NCBI GenBank assembly: GCA_020247005.1
Contig: JADCJN010000065.1
Coordinates: forward strand, 1 to 64,000
Direction: 5' to 3'
DNA: 64,000 nucleotides
Source of the DNA: Silvanigrellales bacterium
GTDB lineage: Bacteria; Bdellovibrionota_B; Oligoflexia; Silvanigrellales; Silvanigrellaceae
Made by a program: the position numbers and the translations under genes. Positions 51,394 to 64,000 of the stretch are shown piece by piece; the first letter of the stretch is position 1, and the number at the start of each line of letters is the position of its first letter. The notes under the pieces were generated by a model. That model was not told the origin of the DNA. It was given only the letters and a program-made list of their open reading frames with translations, and searched no databases.

Positions 51394-53292
51394 ATGAAGG
51401 TCCAAAACAGGGTCCTGAAGGTGGTCCTCCAGGCCGCTCTCAAAGCACCTGCTCTACTTTTGGGCATCACTGCCTTCAGCAGCGCAGGGGCTGAAAAGAC
51501 GAATCCGGCTTCCGCGGGCCCACCGTCCCGGGAACCCCCGTCCGACGCCACCCCCCGCTCTGAACCTCCCCGCCCTTTATGGCGCTGGCCATTAGAAGCC
51601 GAGCCCCCATTGTCGGCGTGGCGTGTTGCAGCCGCACACGCTCGCGCCCGTCCGTTTGTGAACATGCACCAGGCAGGCCTTGAAACCTTGCGACGCGATC
51701 TCTTTTCGGGGCGTGGACGTTGGTTTCCGTTCGGACGAACACCCTTTTCTCCGGCCCAGACTCGGTTCATGAATTTTGGCCGCGGCGCCTTCGCTCTGGC
51801 CGAAGTCGATGCCACCGACACTGTGACCTGGGCGGCCCTCATTGGAACCCGCATGCCCATTCCCTTCTTGGAAGGAGCCGCGTTCAAGTCCGAAGAGGGG
51901 CTCACTCGTTCAAACACCTTCTCAATCTTTGCAGAGGCCTTGGGGCAGACGCGCTCACACGTTCTGTTAGGCGATGCCACCCAGGTGGAATCGAGTGTTC
52001 TTCTCGCCTGGTCGGGCGGGCTGCAGTGCCTTGCCTCTGGAAAAGGCCTGGCGCGCCCTTTGCCCGGATTCATGTGCGACGCCCCCTTCGAGCAGCGCAC
52101 TCGAAGGGCCGTTTCTCGCGACGAGCCCGTGGCTCATTCCTGTCAGGCCATGGGGTCACGCCGCCGAGGCGTCCTTGAAGCCGTCCGCAGCGCTGGAGCC
52201 CCCAACGCGGTCTGTTTCTTCCAACGGTCACCTGCCGACGAGAGATACGAGTCCAGCGCCCTCGAGACCCGACTCGCCTGTTTCGACGGGAGCACGCGCA
52301 AAGCGACATTTCCCGCGGTTCCCGATGCCCAAGCTTTGTTTCCGACGTCTCAAGCAAGCACTTTTTTAGTTTACGAGGGACGCTACTCTCCGCCTAAAGT
52401 TTCGCTTCTCAACCTCAACTCACCGCATGGCCCCACGCTTCAGGACGCCGCTCTTGCAGCGAGCCCCGCAGACGGCCAACAAAGCATCGGCACGTTTGCC
52501 TCTTCCGAACGGAAAGGGAGTCTCGCGCGCATTCCCGAGGGATTCGACAGTGTTTATGCGTGCCAATATCACGACGTCATGGGTCGCGACCCTTCGTCAG
52601 AGGAATGGAAGCGAGAGTGGTACTTCGTCGACACCGACATTTTCGAGGGTCGGCGTGCGCTCGACACGTCCCACGACAGGGCGTTTCGCGTCCGCGTCCA
52701 TGCGGCCACGCGCGCGGGTCCAGACACACTCGCCATTGAATCGATGCCGTGGGACTCCGTGCCGCAGCGTGCGCCCGCTCTCGATGCTTTACCCCGGCTG
52801 AGCTGTCTTCTTTCGCCCGCTCTCGACGTAAAATGTGGCCTCAAAATCCTCCGGCAGGGGGGTCAAATTGCATTTGAAGTTCTGACGGGGGCTTGGGACG
52901 AAACACTTGCACCCGAGGTCAGGTGGGGTGCGCTTGGAGTTTTGGCGTCCGCGCTCGCTGACGTTGAATCACGCATGCCGCAATGGGCGTTGATACAAGA
53001 AACCCGCGCCATGAAGACGTTCTTCTACAAACGTCTGGAGGCCGTACGCACTCAGCTCGAATCTCAAAAGGGTTCAACTTACGATGCTTGGTGGCAGCAC
53101 GAAAGCACTCCACCCGCTCGCACACGGGAAGAAAGTACGGCGGCGGAAAAAAGGCTTGCGGGCTCTGAGCACGACCCCTTTACACGCCGGCAACTCCTTT
53201 CCACCCTAGGTTTACCCGCCGACCTCTGGGAACGCATGAAAAAAAACGAACCGCCACCCGCTGAGACGACGACCGAGGACAAGGCCGAATGA
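51394..53292 (+). CDS. Secreted protein of unknown function
   Basis: The 632-residue product has a signal peptide (basic start, LLLGITAFSSAGA) with cleavage about residue 33, then a Pro/Ser-rich stretch (about 36-62). The rest is a mixed fold with scattered cysteines and a charged C-terminal 90 residues that looks helical. I do not recognise any domain. The ATG at 51394 has only a weak ribosome site. Its stop overlaps the metG start (ATGA), so it is translationally coupled to a core gene, which is odd for an exported protein. Confidence 0.7.
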   Translation: MKVQNRVLKVVLQAALKAPALLLGITAFSSAGAEKTNPASAGPPSREPPSDATPRSEPPRPLWRWPLEAEPPLSAWRVAAAHARARPFVNMHQAGLETLRRDLFSGRGRWFPFGRTPFSPAQTRFMNFGRGAFALAEVDATDTVTWAALIGTRMPIPFLEGAAFKSEEGLTRSNTFSIFAEALGQTRSHVLLGDATQVESSVLLAWSGGLQCLASGKGLARPLPGFMCDAPFEQRTRRAVSRDEPVAHSCQAMGSRRRGVLEAVRSAGAPNAVCFFQRSPADERYESSALETRLACFDGSTRKATFPAVPDAQALFPTSQASTFLVYEGRYSPPKVSLLNLNSPHGPTLQDAALAASPADGQQSIGTFASSERKGSLARIPEGFDSVYACQYHDVMGRDPSSEEWKREWYFVDTDIFEGRRALDTSHDRAFRVRVHAATRAGPDTLAIESMPWDSVPQRAPALDALPRLSCLLSPALDVKCGLKILRQGGQIAFEVLTGAWDETLAPEVRWGALGVLASALADVESRMPQWALIQETRAMKTFFYKRLEAVRTQLESQKGSTYDAWWQHESTPPARTREESTAAEKRLAGSEHDPFTRRQLLSTLGLPADLWERMKKNEPPPAETTTEDKAE

Positions 53293-55310
53293 ACCCCACG
53301 CACCGTTACTTCACCACCCCCATTTACTACGCAACGGGCGAAGCCCATATAGGCCACCTCTATGCGAACACGCTCATGGGACTGCTGCGCAACCAGCAAC
53401 ACCTTCTGGGCCGTGAAACGCTGACCCTCACCGGACTCGACGAACACGGCGAAAAAGTGGAAGAGACCGCGAAGGCACAAGGCGTCTCGCCACAGGCACT
53501 TGTCGATAGCTATGCGCAAAAGTGGAAAAAGACTTTTTCAGACTTTGCCCTGCCCCATGACATCTTCCTGCGCACGACCTCTTCAGAACACGTTGCCACC
53601 GTCACCTCGTTCCTTTCCGCTTGCCACGCCAAGGGCGACATTTATTATGGCGAGCACGAAGGACGTTACTGTGTTGGGTGTGAGGCCTTCCTCACCGATA
53701 AAGAAATGGACGAGACGTTTCATTGTCTCACTCACAAGCGACCCACCGAAATCCGCAAGGAAGGGAACTACTATTTCCGAACGAGCAAATACATTCCTGA
53801 GCTCAAGAAGCGCATCCAGAAGGGTGAAATTCTGGTGCAAAGGCGCTACGTCAACGAAGTTCTCGCCATGCTCGACACCCTTGAAGGCGATCTTTCGATT
53901 TCACGTCCAAAGACACGCACACAATGGGGCATTGAACTTCCGTTCGACACATCGCACGTGACTTACGTTTGGTTCGACGCCCTCTCGAACTACGTCACAG
54001 GAGTGGGAGGTCTCGAAGCGGCGCGGACGAACCCCTTCTGGGCAGGCGTCACGCACATCATCGGCAAAGACATCTTGAAGTTCCACGCCATCTATTGGCC
54101 CGCCATGCTGCTTGCTGTCGACCTGCCGCTGCCACGCCTTCTTGTGCACGGCCTCATTCAGTCGGGCGGGCACAAAATGAGCAAGAGTTTGGGCAACGTC
54201 ATTAGCCCGATCACTCTTCAGCCTTACGGGCGTGACGCCTTCGTGAATCACACCATGCGCATGGTGAACGCGGGCGACGACCTCGACCTCACCTTTCGCG
54301 CTTACTTCGAACGATTCAATGCCGACCTCGCCAACGGCATTGGAAACCTGGCTTCCCGCACGTTCGCCATGGTGGAAAAGTATTTCGACAAACGCCTGCC
54401 TGAAATAGACTCATCGTCGTTCACGAGCTCAGAAGAAGCGCTCGCCCAGAAAATGAGACTGATGCCCGAGCAAGTGAAACGGATGTTCGAACAGTGCGAA
54501 CAGGCAGATGCTCTTGTCGCAATTTGGGATCTCATTGGAAATTGCGACCTCCTTATTACCGAGGCCAAACCGTGGGACCTTGCGAAGTCCGACACGCCTC
54601 TCTCGCGTTCGCGTCTGTCGAACGTGCTTGGACTCACGCTGGCGGCTCTGCGCTGCGTCGGATACCTCGCTTGGCCTTATTTTCCAGAAAAAATGGAAGA
54701 ACTTTTGGAAGCGCTCGGTGAAGACCCAGGAAATATGAAGGGGGCATGGACACGGTTGGAAAACACCCTTGCTCTAAAAGCGGGTCATGCGTTCACCGAT
54801 GTTCCAAAGCTCTTCGCGCGGCTCGACATCAACGTTGAACTCGCGAAATTGGAAAGTGAACAGGCGACGAGGAAAGAAACACTTCCCAAAGAAACGAAGA
54901 AGCGTTCAGCGGCGGTCACCACCTCTCAGGCCCTTGCGTCTGCTGCATCGTCTTCCGCGGGAACAGGCCCTTTGCCATCTGGAATCATAAGTATCGACGA
55001 CTTCACAAAGGTAGATGTCCGAGTGGGCACCGTCGTCTCGGCTGACATGGTCGAAGGCTCCGAAAAACTTTTGCGTCTTCAGGTTTCCCTGGGGGAGCTC
55101 GGCACGAAACAAATTTTTTCGGGCATCCGTCAATGGGTGAAGCCTGAAGAAATTGTGAACCGTTGCGTGCTCGTCGTGGTGAATCTCACCCCAAGAAAGA
55201 TGAAGTTCGGCCTGAGCGAAGGCATGGTGCTTTCCACCGATACACAAGGAGGCGGCGTCTGCCCTGTTTACGTTCCAGAAACACTGAAGGAAGGTGCGCG
55301 CCTTTCGTAA
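53289..55310 (+). CDS. metG: Methionyl-tRNA synthetase
   Basis: The class I synthetase of 673 residues charges initiator and elongator tRNA-Met. It has the HIGH motif (His20-Ile-Gly-His23), a zinc knuckle (CVGCEAF and later CLTH), the WFDALSNYVTG block, the KMSKS motif (starting Lys296 in GGHKMSKSLGN) and the helical anticodon domain. The last 100 residues are a Trbp111/EMAP-like tRNA-binding domain (FTKVDVRVGTVVSADMVEGS). All catalytic motifs are intact, so this is the housekeeping enzyme, in contrast to the divergent paralogue at 60930-62933. Confidence 0.97.
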   Translation: MNPTHRYFTTPIYYATGEAHIGHLYANTLMGLLRNQQHLLGRETLTLTGLDEHGEKVEETAKAQGVSPQALVDSYAQKWKKTFSDFALPHDIFLRTTSSEHVATVTSFLSACHAKGDIYYGEHEGRYCVGCEAFLTDKEMDETFHCLTHKRPTEIRKEGNYYFRTSKYIPELKKRIQKGEILVQRRYVNEVLAMLDTLEGDLSISRPKTRTQWGIELPFDTSHVTYVWFDALSNYVTGVGGLEAARTNPFWAGVTHIIGKDILKFHAIYWPAMLLAVDLPLPRLLVHGLIQSGGHKMSKSLGNVISPITLQPYGRDAFVNHTMRMVNAGDDLDLTFRAYFERFNADLANGIGNLASRTFAMVEKYFDKRLPEIDSSSFTSSEEALAQKMRLMPEQVKRMFEQCEQADALVAIWDLIGNCDLLITEAKPWDLAKSDTPLSRSRLSNVLGLTLAALRCVGYLAWPYFPEKMEELLEALGEDPGNMKGAWTRLENTLALKAGHAFTDVPKLFARLDINVELAKLESEQATRKETLPKETKKRSAAVTTSQALASAASSSAGTGPLPSGIISIDDFTKVDVRVGTVVSADMVEGSEKLLRLQVSLGELGTKQIFSGIRQWVKPEEIVNRCVLVVVNLTPRKMKFGLSEGMVLSTDTQGGGVCPVYVPETLKEGARLS

Positions 55311-55460
55311 GGCGGCATCTTCCGGGGCACTCGAAGCGAAGGCAGCTTTTAGGATTCTGCCCACAAGATTCCCGACACCTCCGCCTCCCGGTGGCAACGA
55401 GCGCATGCTAACTTTCCTCCCAGTCAGGGAAATCCTTTCTGGAACGTAAGCGAGGTTGCA

Positions 55461-57575
55461 ATGCTGCCGGGCCTTTTCACCAAGGAAACGCGGGTTGTCG
55501 TGGTTGAACCCTCGGGTTCTGCTCGCAAATTGATGACCGACTGTTTGAAACCAAATGGCTTCGACTCTCTTCAGTCTATGGACTCACTCAAAAACCTCAT
55601 CGGATTCCTGGAAGTCGAGGAGGCCGACTGGATTGTGATGCCCTTGCAAAAGGACGATCCCGTCACTGGTTTTCATGTACTTAAAATCATTCGCAGCCAG
55701 CCCACACTCCGCCACCTTCGCGTGAGCCTTTTCGTCGAAGACTCGGAGCGCGAGCTCCTTCCTTTTGCGTTCCACTTGGGGGCCCTTTCTTGGCATTCTC
55801 GGGTGTTCACCAAAGACACCGTCAAAAAAGAGTTCGACGTCCTGAAAGGACGCTTCCAAGAAAACAAAGGCGATGCCCTCGCAACTGCCGTGGCCTACCT
55901 TCACGACACCCTTCGCGAAAGCGGAAATTTCGAACGCCTTGCTCACTTTTACGATGGTCTTTCCACGGCGTTCGGAGACGTTGGCACGTATCAAGTCCGT
56001 CATGCCGAAGCGCTCTTTGACGCTGGCAATGTGGAAAAAGGGCGCGAAGCCATAGCGCACCTGCGGCAGCGGAACGTGAGTGGTTGGGAAGGCGTGGCCG
56101 CGCGCCACCTTGCGAAAGACGACATCCCCGATGGCCAATTCGACCTCGACAGCCTCTTGCTCGTCGACCCCGACGAAATGATCCATCGTCAGGTCACCGA
56201 GGCGTTAGCCAAGAAAGGCGTTGGAACGGTGCACGTCGCCCGAGACGGCGAAGAGGCTCTGGCGCTTTTGGTCGAAAAGAAGCCTTCCTTCATTTTGCAA
56301 GAATGGAAGCTCCCTAAAATAGGCGGCGCCCAATTCATTCAACGGGTGAGGCACCTGGGGCACGCGAGCTTGCCCATTGTCGTTGTCAGCTCTCTGCCCA
56401 CGAAACAGGACCTCGCTCTGCTTTCGGAAATGAGCGTCGCCAGGGTGATTCCGAAGCCCTTCGATGAAAGTTTGCTTTTGACCGCCGTTGACGAGTGCCT
56501 GCGCGAAGTGTCGGACCCTCGCGATGCGAAAAGCTTCGAACGGCGATTCCGGGAAACGCTTGCGGAAGGAGACATGCGTCGCGGCTTGTTGTTCTTGCGC
56601 CGACTCATGACTTTCAAGGGGGCAACGGAAGCACAGAAGCTCCTCGCGAAAGCACTTTTCCTTTACTCCCAAAACGCGAATGAAAAGGCCGCTGCAACGT
56701 TGAAGGCGGCTTTGAAGGCAGGAGCAGATCCCCTTCAGGGAGTGCATCTGCTCGGAAAAATTCTCGTGCGCCTTGGCGACTATGCTGGCGCGGTGGCCTG
56801 CTTCGAACGGGCGCAAGAACTTTCGCCAAAAAACATCGAGCGCCTCTGCGACATTGCCGATGCGAAAGCTCAACTTGGCGATGAGTCAGGCGCCTCTGCG
56901 AGCCTCGACGCCGCCAAAGCCATTGACGCAGGAAGCTCAGAGATCACCGAAAAAGAAACAAAACTGGCGCTCATGCGCGGCGACATGAACTGCGCCCGCG
57001 AGCTTCTTTTGAATATGGGGAACCTCCGCATCTTTGTAGCTGACATGAACAACACGGCGGTCGCCTATATCCGCTCGGGTCGTTACGACCAGGGAGTCAC
57101 GCTCTACCGACGTTCCCTTGAAGCGATGCCTGCCACACAAACCGAGTGGCGCATGAAGGTGGGATACAACCTCGCCCTCGCGTTTGCACGCAAGGGCGAC
57201 TTGGCTGCCGCACAGGAAACTCTAGCCAACGTCCCTCGTGACGAGTCCCTTCCCGTTTCGAGAAAAATCACGTCTCTGGAAGACCGCATTGGCAAGGCCA
57301 TCGCGAAAAAAGGGCCGCTCGACCTTCCCGCTCAGGAGTCTCAGAACACAACAAACACAAATGCGACTCCGTGGGATGTGGAGGCCTTCGATGCCTCGAG
57401 CGCAAACGACGCTGCACTCGAGGCGTCCCTAGCAGGGATGTCGTGTGAAGGATTCATTTTGGGTTTTGCGGGCGACGACATGGCGCTGGCGAAGCTTGTC
57501 GCAGGCGCGCCAAAATTTGCGCGCCGCGAAGCGCTTGCGCGCGAAGACTCCATGGGCGTTGAACGGATGATGTGA
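55461..57575 (+). CDS. Double pseudo-receiver TPR protein
   Basis: The 704-residue cytoplasmic protein has two response-regulator receiver folds and a TPR region. The first receiver (about 9-120) has Pro61 where the phosphorylated Asp should be (DWIVMPL). The second (about 230-345) keeps the acidic pair (Asp236, Asp238), a Ser/Ser pair (310-311) and the switch Lys332, but the phospho-Asp is Glu281 (FILQEWKLPKIGG). TPR-like repeats fill about 360-600, and a loose acidic tail ends the chain. GAGG lies 5 bases before the ATG. Such a protein could be a constitutive scaffold. Neighbours (metG, guanine deaminase) do not hint at its pathway. Confidence 0.85.
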   Translation: MLPGLFTKETRVVVVEPSGSARKLMTDCLKPNGFDSLQSMDSLKNLIGFLEVEEADWIVMPLQKDDPVTGFHVLKIIRSQPTLRHLRVSLFVEDSERELLPFAFHLGALSWHSRVFTKDTVKKEFDVLKGRFQENKGDALATAVAYLHDTLRESGNFERLAHFYDGLSTAFGDVGTYQVRHAEALFDAGNVEKGREAIAHLRQRNVSGWEGVAARHLAKDDIPDGQFDLDSLLLVDPDEMIHRQVTEALAKKGVGTVHVARDGEEALALLVEKKPSFILQEWKLPKIGGAQFIQRVRHLGHASLPIVVVSSLPTKQDLALLSEMSVARVIPKPFDESLLLTAVDECLREVSDPRDAKSFERRFRETLAEGDMRRGLLFLRRLMTFKGATEAQKLLAKALFLYSQNANEKAAATLKAALKAGADPLQGVHLLGKILVRLGDYAGAVACFERAQELSPKNIERLCDIADAKAQLGDESGASASLDAAKAIDAGSSEITEKETKLALMRGDMNCARELLLNMGNLRIFVADMNNTAVAYIRSGRYDQGVTLYRRSLEAMPATQTEWRMKVGYNLALAFARKGDLAAAQETLANVPRDESLPVSRKITSLEDRIGKAIAKKGPLDLPAQESQNTTNTNATPWDVEAFDASSANDAALEASLAGMSCEGFILGFAGDDMALAKLVAGAPKFARREALAREDSMGVERMM

Positions 57576-57590
57576 CCGCAGCCTCGCGCA

Positions 57591-59015
57591 TCACCCTTTT
57601 CGGGAAAACACTTTGGTGCCTTCAATCCATGTTTCGCGCACGGCGTCGGGATGAGGCCGAGAAATGACGCGCGAAAGGCGCTCAAGCGCCGACTCTCCTG
57701 TGGCAAGCGTCTGCCCTTGGCGCTGTTCAAGTTGCTGTCCCAGTTCTTGGCGGTTTCGCCCTAGGCGCGGATAGAGAGGGTGCGACAGGAGGTCGTCCAC
57801 CACCACGAAATCGGCCGCCTTGCCCACTGCGAAGTTCCCTATGTGCCTGTCGAGGCCCACGGCGCGGGCGCCTTCCAAGGTGGCTAACGACAGCAACGAT
57901 GGGGCCTTCACAGGCTCTTCGCCGTAAAGCGCCTTGCGAAGACGTGCGGCGTCTCCAACGGCCTTCATTTCTGCCAGCATCGACAGCGATGTGCCACCCG
58001 CCACATCGGTTCCCAACGAAACACGCATGCCTTCTTCCAAGAACCGCGAAAGAGGCATGAGCCCGCTTGAAAGGAAGGTGTTCGAAGAGGCGCAATGAGC
58101 GACCACACACCCCCGCTCTTGGAGCAAAGCGCGCTCGTCGGCTCCCAAGTGCACACAATGCGCCAGAAGGGTGTTTTTTCCTAAAAGGCCACAGGAATCG
58201 TAGACATCGGTGTACGACTTGGCCTTGGGAAACAGTTCGCGCACGAGGGCAATTTCGTCTTTGTTCTCAGCAAGGTGCGTTTGCACAAGAAGACCCCGAC
58301 GCTGCGCCAAATCGGCAGCGCCCTCCATCAGTCCTTGCGTACAACTGACGGCAAAGCGAGGCGTCACAACGAAACGGAGGCGACCGTTTCCGGCGCGGTC
58401 CCAGCAGGCAGCAAGCCTGTCGGCTGCCAAGAGGCTCTTTCCACTTTCTGTCGCAAAATCGGCTGGAACATGGGAGTCCATGAGGACAAGTCCAATGCCG
58501 GCACGAATGCCCGAAGCCCGTGCCTCTTCGAATGCGATGTGCACAGCTTCTTCGTGGTGGGTGCCATATGCCATGACTGTTGTCGTACCCATGGCCAGGC
58601 AAGCCTGAAAGAAATGACGCGCCCGCGCGCGCGCGAGTGTCGGGTCACAAAAGGCCCGTTCATGGGGAAAGGTGTAGGTTTCGAGCCAGGGCAGAAGGGG
58701 AAGATCTCCCAGACCCGTAAACGCGTATTGGGGAAGGTGCGTATGGGTGTCGACAAACCCGGGCATCACCAAGGCGTCCCCAAAATCCACAACGTGGCGG
58801 GCGTCTTTCGGACACTCGCGCGCCAGGGCGAGAATGCGGCCGTCAGGGCCCACACTCAACCAACCCGGATCGAAAACCTCTACGTCGGCAAGAGTCCGAA
58901 GGCGCGACACTCCCGATGCAGAGCCTCCCGCCTCGGAATGGGTGCTCCCGCGGGGGCTGAGAAACGTCCCTTTGAACACCCGAGCGTCGGGAGCCCGATC
59001 GCGCAAAAGCGTCAT
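57591..59015 (-). CDS. guaD: Guanine deaminase (amidohydrolase family)
   Basis: The 474-residue zinc amidohydrolase turns guanine into xanthine. It shows PGFVDTHTHLPQY (first metal ligands), TPRFAVSC, LVQTHLAENKDEI, SYTDVYDSCGLLG...AHCVHL and SLGTDVAGGTSLSML, the blocks of GuaD rather than of cytosine or chlorohydrolase relatives. The start overlaps the stop of the pentapeptide-repeat gene (ATGA). The C-terminus (VRETWIEGTKVF) closes the composite beta domain. A substrate other than guanine cannot be excluded. Confidence 0.88.
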   Translation of the reverse strand: MTLLRDRAPDARVFKGTFLSPRGSTHSEAGGSASGVSRLRTLADVEVFDPGWLSVGPDGRILALARECPKDARHVVDFGDALVMPGFVDTHTHLPQYAFTGLGDLPLLPWLETYTFPHERAFCDPTLARARARHFFQACLAMGTTTVMAYGTHHEEAVHIAFEEARASGIRAGIGLVLMDSHVPADFATESGKSLLAADRLAACWDRAGNGRLRFVVTPRFAVSCTQGLMEGAADLAQRRGLLVQTHLAENKDEIALVRELFPKAKSYTDVYDSCGLLGKNTLLAHCVHLGADERALLQERGCVVAHCASSNTFLSSGLMPLSRFLEEGMRVSLGTDVAGGTSLSMLAEMKAVGDAARLRKALYGEEPVKAPSLLSLATLEGARAVGLDRHIGNFAVGKAADFVVVDDLLSHPLYPRLGRNRQELGQQLEQRQGQTLATGESALERLSRVISRPHPDAVRETWIEGTKVFSRKG

Positions 59016-59521
59016 CGCGCGACTTTCGTTCCCTCATTCACCGAACGCAAAATTTCGTCACGCGGAATGAGGTCGGTGGGCAACGTGGCCCGGCGGATGT
59101 TCGCCCGATAGAGCACGGCACCGCGCAGCTTCGTGTAGTCGAGGTCGGCGTCTTCTAAATTCGCACGTGTGAGGTTCGCGCCTTCAAGGTTCGCGTTCCA
59201 CAAAGAGGCGTTCGAAAAGTCGCAAGCCTCAAGGTTGGAGTCCTTGAAGTTCACATAACTCAGGTTGGCTGTGGCAAACGTACAGTTCGAAAAATCGAGC
59301 TTCGTAAGGTTTGCTTTGCGGAGATCAAGGCCTGAAAAGTTCCTTGACGACTGGAGGATTTCAATCGCCTCTTTGCGCGTGAGCGTTTTGGGCTTCGCGT
59401 TCTCTTTGTCAATGTCCGAAAGGGCTCCGGCAGCTCCGGCCTCACCCTCTTCGTCGTCGCCGCTGTCATCGTCGAAGTCGCCTTCAAAGTCTTCATCATC
59501 GTCTGAAGACTTCCGGGCCAT
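59012..59521 (-). CDS. Pentapeptide-repeat protein with acidic N-terminus
   Basis: The 169-residue protein begins with a very acidic, disordered stretch (DDDEDFEGDFDDD, about 7-30), a short helix (TRKEAIEILQSS) and then about 16 pentapeptide repeats of the A(D/N)Lxx type (NFSGLDLRKANLTKLDFSNC...NANLEGANLTRANLEDADLD), forming a right-handed square helix. Such repeats mimic DNA or act as scaffolds. The ATG at 59521 has GAGG about 8 bases upstream; earlier ATGs are open. Its end overlaps the guaD start, so the two are co-translated. The link is unexplained. Confidence 0.85.
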   Translation of the reverse strand: MARKSSDDDEDFEGDFDDDSGDDEEGEAGAAGALSDIDKENAKPKTLTRKEAIEILQSSRNFSGLDLRKANLTKLDFSNCTFATANLSYVNFKDSNLEACDFSNASLWNANLEGANLTRANLEDADLDYTKLRGAVLYRANIRRATLPTDLIPRDEILRSVNEGTKVAR

Positions 59522-59698
59522 GAGTTGAGCCTCGGGGCGAGTGCCGCGACGAAGGCCTGGCCGAATGCTGGCATCGCGAAGAATCATGCGTGTCCGAAGC
59601 CTCCCTGAAAAAAGCCGTCCGCGAATCGTGTCCGCCACCATAGCCCGCGCGTGCGCATGGTCAACTCTGCGGGGTGTGCAAAGACTCCGAAAGGGCCC

Positions 59699-60685
59699 TC
59701 AATTCGAATCCGAAGTGAGGCTTTCTTCCGCTGTGGCCAGTGATTCCAACGAACTCGACTGGCCATCTTCTTCTGAAAGGTCCAGAGGCGCCGTTCGGCC
59801 CAAGGCCCCCATCAGAGTGATGGGCAGGGGTGCCGCTGTGAACACAGAAGGTTCGGCGTTTTCCAGCAAAAGGAAAGCAAGCCTCGAGCGGATGATACTC
59901 TTTGGCACCCAAAACACGTCCGAGAGCGTTTTCACAAGGTTCATTTTCGAGGGAACCTTCTGAATCTCGGCCCGAAGCGATTCCTTGGGCACCAAAAGCG
60001 CATTCGAGAAGTCGACGATTTCGAAGAACGACCTGTTCTCGAGCTTCGGCGGGATGTGGAACTGTTCCCGCTCAGAATAAAGCACCACACGAGCGATTTC
60101 GCGCGCGATAGCGGCGCGGGTGTGCGCGCGCATCTCCCCTTTCCGGCACCGGATGCTGTAGAGGCCGGGCTTCACGCGGGAGCTGCGGGCAATTTTGTCG
60201 CTCACTTCGCCTTGCGACACTTGAATGAACGCCAACACCTGAAGGACTTCAGGAAGGTAAACGGGCACGCTGGAAACGCCTGCCTTTTGCAAAATGCCTT
60301 GCGCAACCTGCTCAAGAACCAGTTGCCTGTCGCGACGCTGCACCAAGAGATCGCTTCCAAGCTCTTGAGAAATGCGCTTCTCTTCCTCAGCTTCGGCGAA
60401 GTCGAGCCAGGCCTCTTCGAAGTCGAGCGTGCCATCGACAATGTCTTGGAACGTTTCGATGTCCACGTCGAGCGCCTGCGCGAGCGCTTCTAGGGCGTAG
60501 ACACTTCGAACCGCTTTTTTGCCGCGCTTCCAGTGGCTGGTGTCGCTCGGGTTGTACTGAAGGATATTGCCGACTTCCTGGTCGTGAACCTTCGTGCCCT
60601 TCCGTCGGATTTCAAGAACCCTCAGGCAAAAGCGAAACAGCAATGCGGAATGAGGAAACCTCTGGGTGTCAGTGTTCTTGCGCAT
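59699..60685 (-). CDS. XRE-type regulator with degenerate ImmA/IrrE-like domain
   Basis: The 328-residue protein has an XRE-like helix-turn-helix near its start (about 32-85: VGNILQYNPSDTSHWKRGKK). After a charged linker (about 85-110) comes a region that resembles ImmA/IrrE metallopeptidases: AAIAREIARVVL (191-202), then FFEIVDFSNALLVPKESL and a late winged-helix segment (LVKTLSDVFWVPKSIIRSRLA). In active members the first block is HExxH; here it is Arg195-Glu-Ile-Ala-Arg199, so zinc binding is lost. The ATG at 60685 has AAAGGA upstream. It is divergent from the MetRS-like gene, which it may regulate. About 240 bases between them hold no other gene. Confidence 0.75.
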   Translation of the reverse strand: MRKNTDTQRFPHSALLFRFCLRVLEIRRKGTKVHDQEVGNILQYNPSDTSHWKRGKKAVRSVYALEALAQALDVDIETFQDIVDGTLDFEEAWLDFAEAEEEKRISQELGSDLLVQRRDRQLVLEQVAQGILQKAGVSSVPVYLPEVLQVLAFIQVSQGEVSDKIARSSRVKPGLYSIRCRKGEMRAHTRAAIAREIARVVLYSEREQFHIPPKLENRSFFEIVDFSNALLVPKESLRAEIQKVPSKMNLVKTLSDVFWVPKSIIRSRLAFLLLENAEPSVFTAAPLPITLMGALGRTAPLDLSEEDGQSSSLESLATAEESLTSDSN

Positions 60686-60929
60686 AGACACTTTCCTTTT
60701 GGTTCACCTTGCATCCGGTGCAGGCACCACCCTGCTGGGGAGGCAAGCTTTTTTGGGAGCTGTTCGGGTGTTGTCAATGTTATCTCAGACTTTAGAAAAA
60801 ACAGCCAGCCGAAGCAAGACATATTTTGAACAGGTGGCCAGTTTTAGCAGGGGTCCTTGGGCCCAGCGCGCACCTGGGGTATCTGAAAAGAAGTGTTCCA
60901 CGGTGCACATTCACGAGGCCGAACGCATC

Positions 60930-62933
60930 ATGCCCACCCCTTCTTCCCAAGCCCCGACCCGCCCCCCTGTCCCGACGCGCGCTGTCATTACGGGCGGCAT
61001 GCCCTATGGCAATAAGGAACTTCATTTTGGTCACGTTGGTGGCATGTTTGTGCAGGCCGACGCATTCGCTCGTTTTTTGCGCGATCGCATAGGCAAAGAA
61101 AACGTGCTTTTTGTGTCAGGAACTGACTGCTACGGCTCACCCATCGTAGAAAGCCATCGTGTGCAAGTGGAGTCGGGGCAATTCACCGGCACCTTGGAAG
61201 AGTTTGTTGCCGCGAACCATGCCAAGCAAAAAAGTGCGCTCGATGCCTATGGCATCAGCCTCGATTTCTTCGGCACCTCGGGGCTTGGCCGGGCCCGCAC
61301 TGTTCACACCGAAATGTGCGGAGCCTTTTTCCAACGCCTCAAAGAAAACGGACATCTGAAAAAAGCCCCTTCTTCGCAATTTTTCGACCCGCAGGCGAAC
61401 GCACTGTTGAACGGGCGGCAGGTTGTGGGCCGATGCCCCGTGCCAGGTTGCAAGTCGGAAAAAGCCTACGCCGACGAATGCTCGCTAGGTCACCCCTATG
61501 AACCCAGCGAACTCCTCGAACCCAAGAGCACGCTCACAGGCGCAACACCCGAACTCCGCACTGTGGAAAACTGGTACATCGATCTCGAAAAATTCCGCTC
61601 TTTATTGTGGCAATACACCGAGCGCGTGCAGAGCAGCGCCGCCTGTCGCCCTTACGCAGTGAGTGGCATGCGCGAGTTCCTCGAGCCTCCCACATTGCAT
61701 GTCAAAGGCGACAACGAAGCCTTGCTCAACGAAGCCTCGGCGCACCTCCCACCGCACACCCGCAAGGAGCCCCTGGGCAAGGGCCAGCCCATTCGCATCG
61801 TCTTTGCGAGTCTTGCCGAACGTGAAACGGCCGCTGCAGAGCTGACGCGTCGAGGGGTGCGTTTTCGCGCCGGCAAAACCCTCGTGCCGTTTCGTCTGAC
61901 AGGGAACGTGGAGTGGGGCCTGCCTGCGCCTTCTATCGATGGCCTTTCTGATCTCACTTTTTGGGTGTGGCCCGAATCACTTTGGGCGCCGCTTTCTTTC
62001 ACGGCGACACTTCTCGAAACCCAAGGCAAGAATCCTGCGCTCTGGAAGCAGTGGTGGTGCAGCCGCGAATCGTCAGCGTTTCAATTCATTGGCGAAGACA
62101 ATCTCTACTTCTACGGCCTCGCCGAAATGGGCCTGTTTTTGGGCGACCAAGGCCCCACGCCGGCGGCCGAGCCGCCAGAAGGGGCGCTCCAGTTGCCTCA
62201 CCTTGTGGTGAACAACCACATCCTTTTTTTCGACAAGAAAGCGAGCAGCAGCGGAGCCATCAAGCCCCCTTTGGCACACGAGCTTTTGGATCACTACACG
62301 GCCGACCAGTTGCGCGCGCACTTCTTGGCGCTTGGCCTCGGCCTCAAGAGTGTCGGGTTCAAGCCAAAGCCTTTGAACCCAGATGCCAACGACAAAGAAG
62401 GCGATCCGGTGATGAAGGAGGGCAACCTTCTTTGCAACGCGTTCAACAAAGCCGTTCGAACGTGCTTTCACACCGCGCACAAAAGCTTTGAGGGGCGCAT
62501 TCCTGAGGGCAGGGTCTCCGACGACGTTCTTGCGGAAGCACGCACTGCCATTTTGGCGTTCGAGAGCGCAATGCTGCGGCATGTTTTCCATGAAGCCATG
62601 GCCGTGGTGGACAACTACACCCGCTCCATCAACAAGCGCTGGACCACCACCGTGAAACCCGGCACCGAGCTTTCGGCCGACGATCCATCCCTGCGCCAGG
62701 TTCTTGTGGACGTCTTCTATATGGTGAAGGTTGCCACTGTGCTTCTGCACCCCATCGCGCCGTTCGGCACAGAACGGATCCGAGAGTACCTTGGAGTCGG
62801 CGAGGAACTTTGGAGCTGGCAGCGCATCTTCGACCCCCTGCCCTCGTTCTTTCCCAACCCCGAGACCCACACTCTGAAGGTGCTTGAAGCTCGGGTCGAT
62901 TTCTTTCCAAAACACCCCTCGCAGCTTGTTTAA
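60930..62933 (+). CDS. Divergent methionyl-tRNA synthetase-like protein
   Basis: The 667-residue class I synthetase fold resembles MetRS: ITGGMPYGNKELHFGH (HIGH as HFGH, 32-35), FVSGTDCYGSPI, a zinc-knuckle-like CPVPGC...CSLGH and a helical C-terminal domain (LLCNAFNKAVRTCFH). Active-site departures are KASSS (437-441) for KMSKS, WPESLW for the WFDA block and an extra segment of about 60 residues before WGLPAP. It has no Trbp111-like tail. It may charge an unusual substrate, be a resistant backup enzyme or have lost aminoacylation. GAGG lies 11 bases before the ATG; the frame is open back to 60666. A membrane protein gene follows after 14 bases. Confidence 0.85.
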   Translation: MPTPSSQAPTRPPVPTRAVITGGMPYGNKELHFGHVGGMFVQADAFARFLRDRIGKENVLFVSGTDCYGSPIVESHRVQVESGQFTGTLEEFVAANHAKQKSALDAYGISLDFFGTSGLGRARTVHTEMCGAFFQRLKENGHLKKAPSSQFFDPQANALLNGRQVVGRCPVPGCKSEKAYADECSLGHPYEPSELLEPKSTLTGATPELRTVENWYIDLEKFRSLLWQYTERVQSSAACRPYAVSGMREFLEPPTLHVKGDNEALLNEASAHLPPHTRKEPLGKGQPIRIVFASLAERETAAAELTRRGVRFRAGKTLVPFRLTGNVEWGLPAPSIDGLSDLTFWVWPESLWAPLSFTATLLETQGKNPALWKQWWCSRESSAFQFIGEDNLYFYGLAEMGLFLGDQGPTPAAEPPEGALQLPHLVVNNHILFFDKKASSSGAIKPPLAHELLDHYTADQLRAHFLALGLGLKSVGFKPKPLNPDANDKEGDPVMKEGNLLCNAFNKAVRTCFHTAHKSFEGRIPEGRVSDDVLAEARTAILAFESAMLRHVFHEAMAVVDNYTRSINKRWTTTVKPGTELSADDPSLRQVLVDVFYMVKVATVLLHPIAPFGTERIREYLGVGEELWSWQRIFDPLPSFFPNPETHTLKVLEARVDFFPKHPSQLV

Positions 62934-62947
62934 CGCACAAGGGAACA

Positions 62948-64000
62948 ATGGCTATAGAAATCGCCTCATCGGTTGCACTCACACTTTTTTTCCTCGCGAC
63001 CCTCTTTTTTTCTAGCATTGGCCTCCTTGCACTTACGGCGGGCAATACCGCTGACACGTTCAGGGCGTCGAGCGTGTTGCTCGCCTCCGTTCTTGTTTTC
63101 GTGGTGTTTGGAACTTTCGTGCACCTTGTCGCCCAGGCGGGAGTCCAAACTCCTTTTGTCACCGGGTCAGGCCTTATTGCCTTCTCTCTTCTTGGTGCAT
63201 GGCAAGCGAAGAAACACAGAGTCCTCCCCACGCTGAGGGAAAAACTCTTCGCCTATGCTCAGCAAGAGAAGTGGATTTTTCCTGGCATCGCCTCGCTTTT
63301 CCTTCTCAAATTCTTTGCGTCTCTGGTTTTGTCCGACCATGGAGATGCGTATCTTTATCATTTGACGGCATCGGAAACGTGGCTCTCGATGGGCACCACG
63401 GGGTGGGCGCAAGAAAACTTCACGCTGGGTTATGCGTTCGCCCTCGAAAATGTGTCGTTCTTCTTCAGAACACTGGGCGTGACTCCTGGCGTTCAAGGTG
63501 CCGCAACACAAATGGTTGTGGGCAGCCTGTCGACTTCGGTTTTTGCCCTGGCCATCGCTCTTCCTGCTCAATTCTTCCAGAGCAAAAGCTTCCGGACGAT
63601 TTCGTTGGCCTTGCTGTGTTCCCTCAACGGAATGATCTCGTCTTGGAGTTTTTTGGCCAAATCCGACATGCTCGCCGCTTCGTTGGCCGTAGTCGTTGTT
63701 TACTCGGCTGCGCGCAAAGACGCGTTGTCTTTTCTCCTCGCCGCGCCCAGCATCTTCATCCTCAAGCCGAATTTTGCCCCCTTCTGCGTTTTGGCCGCAT
63801 TCCTTTGGTTTTGGAAACGATCACCAAAGCCTGCACTCGTGGGTGGGGTTCTGGCCTTTGCTTTGGCGGCGCCTTTTCTCGCCGTCAACGCCTTGCGCAC
63901 GGGAAACCCGGTGTTCCCCTTCCTCAGCACGGTGTTTCCTTCACCCTTCAGCCCTGAAGTCCTCTCGAGGGTCATTTACGAAGTCCCCAAGACACAGTTC
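62948..64000 (+). CDS. Polytopic membrane protein, possible glycosyltransferase (3' end outside window)
   Basis: An open frame of 351 codons begins at an ATG with AAGGG just upstream and runs off the window. It has about eight to nine hydrophobic helices. DHGDAYLYHLTASETWLSMG follows the first helices, and LRTGNPVFPFLSTVF occurs near the visible end. The Asp-x-x-x-His and Arg-x-Gly-Asn-Pro-Val-x-Pro-Phe patterns are common in GT-C-type membrane sugar transferases, so it may use a lipid-linked sugar. It follows the MetRS-like gene by 14 bases in the same direction and is probably co-transcribed. Confidence 0.75.
   Translation, partial: MAIEIASSVALTLFFLATLFFSSIGLLALTAGNTADTFRASSVLLASVLVFVVFGTFVHLVAQAGVQTPFVTGSGLIAFSLLGAWQAKKHRVLPTLREKLFAYAQQEKWIFPGIASLFLLKFFASLVLSDHGDAYLYHLTASETWLSMGTTGWAQENFTLGYAFALENVSFFFRTLGVTPGVQGAATQMVVGSLSTSVFALAIALPAQFFQSKSFRTISLALLCSLNGMISSWSFLAKSDMLAASLAVVVVYSAARKDALSFLLAAPSIFILKPNFAPFCVLAAFLWFWKRSPKPALVGGVLAFALAAPFLAVNALRTGNPVFPFLSTVFPSPFSPEVLSRVIYEVPKTQF

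Follow-up and report, generated by a model that had tools for sequence, protein, structure and literature searches.

The window, by which we mean the whole stretch of 64,000 nucleotides that was analysed, encodes two proteins of the methionyl-tRNA synthetase (MetRS) fold, and this raises the question of what the second of them is for. The two genes are as follows:

60930..62933, + strand: MetRS-fold protein of 667 aa, proposed glutaminyl-tRNA synthetase of MetRS origin (group A)
53289..55310, + strand: canonical metG of the same genome, used for comparison; complete, and passing PRK12267

The original prediction had taken the first of these for a distant paralogue of MetRS that may have acquired a new substrate or role, beside a complete metG. 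Both points are supported, and the likely substrate can now be named as glutamine. We consider it very likely that the gene belongs to a family of MetRS-derived (class Ia) synthetases predicted to glutaminylate tRNA-Gln directly. A MetRS-type class Ia ancestor would have had its specificity switched to glutamine; a Met pocket remodelled by five substitutions (L13M, A256S, Y260P, I297N and H301Y in E. coli numbering) would form Gln-AMP from Gln and ATP, and the glutamine would then be passed straight to tRNA-Gln. Such an enzyme would replace both the class Ib GlnRS, which is GluRS-derived, and the route of GluRS plus GatCAB. Gln-AMP formation, tRNA-Gln charging and the role of each pocket residue are predicted from the observations given below, and the function would carry over to the window protein from its clostridial orthologues, which are 50-58% identical.

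The reading frame at 60930-62933 is uninterrupted, with an ATG start and 667 codons. Two segments of its product matched the Pfam family tRNA-synt_1g (E 3e-58), and the product fell below all NCBIfam metG equivalog cut-offs, with a top score of 228 bits where 587 were required. The predicted model had a mean pLDDT of 92.6 and could be superposed on E. coli MetRS over 527 residues (Z 36, 2.9 A). The neighbours expected from the original prediction were found in part: there is a gene on the opposite strand (59699-60691), though its supposed ImmA-type regulator identity comes down to a sub-threshold HTH match, and the ORF downstream, from 62948, matched the LIC_10190 membrane family weakly. Neither flanking gene is kept beside the group-A gene in Ca. 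Ozemobacter or in G034, and therefore the neighbourhood is uninformative on function. Further upstream, a guanine-deaminase-like amidohydrolase (57591-59015, - strand) and a pentapeptide-repeat protein (59012-59641, - strand) have frames that overlap by 4 bases.

Our scan of named genomes returned 419 relatives. The best 80 of these 419, which were kept, are 50-66% identical and nearly all clostridial (Ruminococcus, Clostridium, Anaerocolumna, Monoglobus), with the addition of Ca. Ozemobacter. The nearest named relative is Ca. Ozemobacter sibiricus (65% identical), from which the class of the window was judged to be Riflebacteria; the group-A copy in G034 is 54% identical. A second set, group B, was found in 14 Riflebacteria genomes at about 27-34% identity. 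The tree that the original prediction had called for was run, and the window protein grouped with the family that carries KASSS. In this unrooted tree, made by a quick method and subject to a long-branch warning, groups A and B each lie on one side of a branch and together stand opposite 23 MetRS with support of 100. RefSeq gives the clostridial members no name beyond 'class I tRNA ligase family protein', and we found no Pfam or NCBIfam model specific to the family. A tblastn search of a phage collection gave ordinary MetRS-level matches only, under 33% identity. To judge from these comparisons, we are dealing with a large conserved enzyme family rather than a decaying MetRS paralogue. A member from Collinsella aerofaciens (L192:3974-6124), 43% identical, lies on a record labelled plasmid, and in Clostridium manihotivorum a RAGATH-18 RNA (L075:12244-12305) was observed just downstream of the group-A gene.

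The features of the protein are listed here by their position in the window:

61023..61034, + strand: HFGH (HIGH motif), residues 32-35; H32, G34 and H35 invariant in 52 aligned members
61119..61145, + strand: GTDCYGSPI block; Asp66 aligns with E. coli MetRS Asp52 and is invariant in the 52 aligned members
61434..61493, + strand: putative zinc knuckle CPxxGC...CxLGH, in which the C4 of MetRS has become C3H
61677..61907, + strand: insert of about 75 aa, predicted b-a-b-b-a-b (ferredoxin-like) domain; in groups A and B, not in MetRS
61962..61991, + strand: WVWPESLWAP pocket block; S350 and P354 in place of MetRS Ala256 and Tyr260
62091..62114, + strand: GEDNLYFY pocket block; Y395 in place of MetRS His301, N391 at the Ile297 position
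62238..62252, + strand: KASSS (residues 437-441) instead of KMSKS; invariant in 82 group-A proteins
62397..62849, + strand: C-terminal helical anticodon-binding domain; MetRS Pro-Trp lost

HFGH, KASSS, WPESLW (residues 347-352) and the insert before WGLPAP had all been pointed out beforehand, and all were found to be present and conserved across the family; only the length of the insert had to be revised, to about 75 residues (250-326) from about 60. Structure matches of the insert were generic ferredoxin-like ones with Z under 9, and pointed to no informative family. The zinc region CPxxGC...YADECxxGH and the pocket block WVWPESL(W/I)AP were strongly conserved across the 82 group-A proteins. 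Asp52 of E. coli MetRS holds the amino group of the substrate. The lost Pro-Trp corresponds to Trp461 of E. coli MetRS, the reader of anticodon base C34.

The insert and the altered pocket are common to groups A and B. M24, S350, P354 and Y395 (E. coli L13, A256, Y260 and H301) are conserved in both groups and absent or nearly so in the 23 MetRS, which at these columns have A256 in 23/23, Y260 in 23/23 and H301 in 23/23. N391 and Y395 are invariant among the 52 aligned members. Protein engineers shift the specificity of MetRS by altering three positions, L13, Y260 and H301. The entry 3h97, for example, is by its title a mutant whose specificity has been modified. The MetRS-like domain of PyrN with a glutamyl-adenylate analogue (PDB 9l8v) appeared among the structural matches of the predicted model.

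The original prediction had further supposed that loss of the second lysine of KMSKS slows or stops ATP activation, and here our results gave no support. Human TyrRS works with KMSSS. The MetRS of Pyrococcus abyssi (1rqg) has KFSTS, likewise without the second lysine, and all 82 full-length homologues from Clostridia and Riflebacteria have KASSS; because of these three points, the loss of this lysine need not imply inactivity. Furthermore, group B has an intact KMSKS together with the same pocket changes, and therefore KASSS is a group-A trait and no marker of new function. Extra MetRS paralogues of ~530-550 aa with KxSTS were seen in Clostridium and Oceanirhabdus (L180-L183; G062, G060, G061), besides metG and group A.

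The regulatory regions gave a link to a particular tRNA. Upstream of the best 80 of the 419 relatives, a T-box core was found at 90-470 nt in 26 loci, and 15 leaders passed the Rfam gathering score. All 24 readable specifiers were Gln codons (CAA in 22, CAG in L038 and L044), while the base preceding the specifier varied freely (A, C, G or none). At the same columns in the same genomes, the control leaders of metG (Clostridium, Oceanirhabdus, Anaerocolumna) read AUG and one asnS leader read AAC. Each leader has a T-run (terminator) 31-50 nt past the T-box core, and the interval from leader to gene contains no ORF longer than 39 aa. The T-box bulge, UGGU or UGGC, pairs with G73 of the tRNA-Gln of the same organisms, the U only through a U-G wobble. 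Gln specifiers are among the rarest in TBDB, and the regions upstream of glnS in Clostridium and Anaerocolumna gave no T-box at E <= 1e-4. The T-boxes are limited to part of the clostridial orthologues, and none was found in Riflebacteria. The clostridial group-A genes would thus be regulated by, and hence tied to, tRNA-Gln; for group B, it is the identity of the pocket and the complementarity described next that suggest glutamine. The metG T-box at L155:69-318 (- strand) combines an AUG specifier with a bulge UGGA, mismatched to the A73 expected for tRNA-Met.

The distribution of the family against the known routes revealed the same exclusion of glnS in two phyla, with absences of glnS and gatB taken from draft genomes and MAGs. 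Among 58 Riflebacteria genomes, glnS was found in 0/16 carriers of A or B versus 28/42 non-carriers (Fisher p 2e-6, phylogeny ignored). A search of 247 genomes from the order of R. albus gave 19 group-A carriers; glnS was present in 1/19 carriers versus 47 of the 61 non-carriers compared, counting two incomplete or contig-split genes (Fisher p 2e-8, phylogeny likewise ignored). Eleven Riflebacteria have neither glnS nor gatB and 11/11 carry A or B, whereas the non-carriers without glnS have gatB in 12/12 (excluding the incomplete G013 and G014). Both genes are missing from six carriers in the R. albus order, including R. albus 8, on which the search was centred, and from no non-carrier. Counting genomes that had not been picked for the family, A or B is present in 16/16 of those that lack both glnS and gatB (11 Riflebacteria and 5 from the order), and no fully tested genome was without all of glnS, gatB and the A/B family. 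R. albus genomes have neither glnS nor gatB. No GatB/GatE-type amidotransferase was found in the 11 Riflebacteria or in R. albus with a search model that recovers archaeal control genomes.

Carriers also have the canonical MetRS. Where group A and gatB occur together in the R. albus order, asnS is absent in 10/12 genomes, and therefore GatCAB is needed there for Asn; carriers without gatB have asnS in 7/7. However, glnS is also present in the eight Clostridium and Anaerocolumna genomes checked and in G300. In most of these eight, the group-A gene has a Gln T-box, and in Clostridium and Anaerocolumna with glnS it may serve as a reserve induced by uncharged tRNA-Gln. In Ruminococcus, the group-A gene often comes directly after gltX, and in R. 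albus 7 (ortholog WP_013483668.1) both are found together on pRUMAL02, a plasmid of 353 kb. This plasmid, on which the gene of the glutamate--tRNA ligase family and the proposed GlnRS occupy L191:131-4468, was typed as conjugative.

Group A, gatB and asnS are all present in the window genome, and glnS is absent. The supply of Gln-tRNA-Gln there may therefore be divided between this enzyme and GatCAB, and with gatB present the group-A gene may not be needed in this genome. The tRNA-Gln of the window genome resembles that of relatives with GatCAB only. From its position in the tree, the window copy may be a horizontally acquired second route. As for tRNA-Gln elsewhere, the discriminator is A73 in Oscillospirales carriers without glnS (L122-L127, L129) and G73 in the glnS genomes that were read, and G029, with group B only, has A1-U72 and A73. 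We had considered A73 as proof of a Gln role, but it is suggestive at most and was dropped, for carriers elsewhere keep G73.

Several other explanations have to be weighed against direct glutaminylation. Spare MetRS copies occur in bacteria, and the protein does have a MetRS fold, so that one may think of a second MetRS, for instance an antibiotic-tolerant spare like pneumococcal MetRS2. However, the T-box specifiers are Gln and not Met, the positions of the Met pocket that are invariant in 23 MetRS are altered, and a methionine enzyme would not account for the complementarity with glnS; this explanation is highly improbable. A catalytically dead paralogue, whether regulatory or decaying, was suggested by the departure of KASSS from KMSKS, and it is hardly credible for proteins that are full-length and 50-66% identical across phyla, with the HFGH-type motif conserved, D66 and W347 invariant and KASSS itself invariant in group A. 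It would also leave many genomes without any route to Gln-tRNA-Gln.

The other two explanations take PyrN as their starting point. Its MetRS-like domain activates glutamate, and therefore Glu fits the MetRS fold; moreover, what the T-box and profile data reveal is the tRNA, not which amino acid is attached to it. The enzyme could then be a tRNA-Gln-specific GluRS of MetRS fold that charges glutamate, with an amidotransferase making the amide afterwards. This requires a second, as yet unrecognised enzyme, while the GatB/GatE-type is absent from just those 11 Riflebacteria and R. albus, and we regard it as unlikely. Activation without any tRNA, as in a PyrN-type hydrazine synthetase, is very unlikely. 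PyrN activates L-Glu in a tRNA-independent manner (PMC8664883), and its MetRS-like domain is a structural match of the window protein, but the latter contains no cupin domain and none was found among the neighbours scanned at 51394-64000. Furthermore, the family retains the anticodon-binding domain, shows T-box control by tRNA-Gln and is present where tRNA-Gln charging is otherwise missing.

Direct glutaminylation by a MetRS-derived enzyme thus remains the preferred reading. To our knowledge, every GlnRS known so far has its origin in GluRS, and bacteria that have no GlnRS were thought to be dependent on GatCAB. We found the family described nowhere in the open-access literature, nor any MetRS-like gene reported to carry Gln T-boxes. 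It is likely that the family provides a third route to Gln-tRNA-Gln, independent of the GluRS-derived GlnRS, and that in some Clostridia (R. albus) and Riflebacteria the decoding of CAA and CAG depends on it solely. If true, a component of the core genetic code would have been replaced by a non-orthologous enzyme, much as with class I LysRS, and genomes that lack both known Gln routes would be explained. Hundreds of entries named 'class I tRNA ligase family protein' could then be reannotated, engineering would gain a natural MetRS re-tuned to a polar side chain, and the enzyme would present a target in gut and rumen bacteria.

Among known systems, MetRS (E. coli 1qqt/1f4l; P. abyssi 1rqg) shares with the family the class Ia fold (Z 36), the HIGH-type motif, Asp66, Trp347, the zinc-knuckle region and the helical anticodon-binding domain. 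The family differs in that L13, A256, Y260, I297 and H301 are replaced and Trp461 is lost, in its insert of ~75 aa and, in group A, KASSS, in an identity of about 22-26%, and in coexisting with the canonical MetRS. GlnS (class Ib, TIGR00440) would have the same reaction, tRNA partner and genomic niche, but the family is MetRS-derived and not GluRS-derived, and none of 52 members had TIGR00440 among its NCBIfam matches. The route of GluRS plus GatCAB yields the same product, Gln-tRNA-Gln, as an alternative in the same genomic niche; the family, in contrast, is a single enzyme and would need no amidotransferase, and in the R. albus order most genomes that have both are without AsnRS. The MetRS-like domain of PyrN (PDB 9l8v, with a Glu-AMP analogue) resembles the family as a MetRS fold re-tuned to the Glu side chain, and offers a precedent for adapting the fold to polar side chains of Glu/Gln size. 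Unlike PyrN, which is tRNA-independent and partners a cupin in a natural-product pathway, the family has tRNA-Gln T-boxes, and no cupin partner was seen among the scanned neighbours of the window gene.
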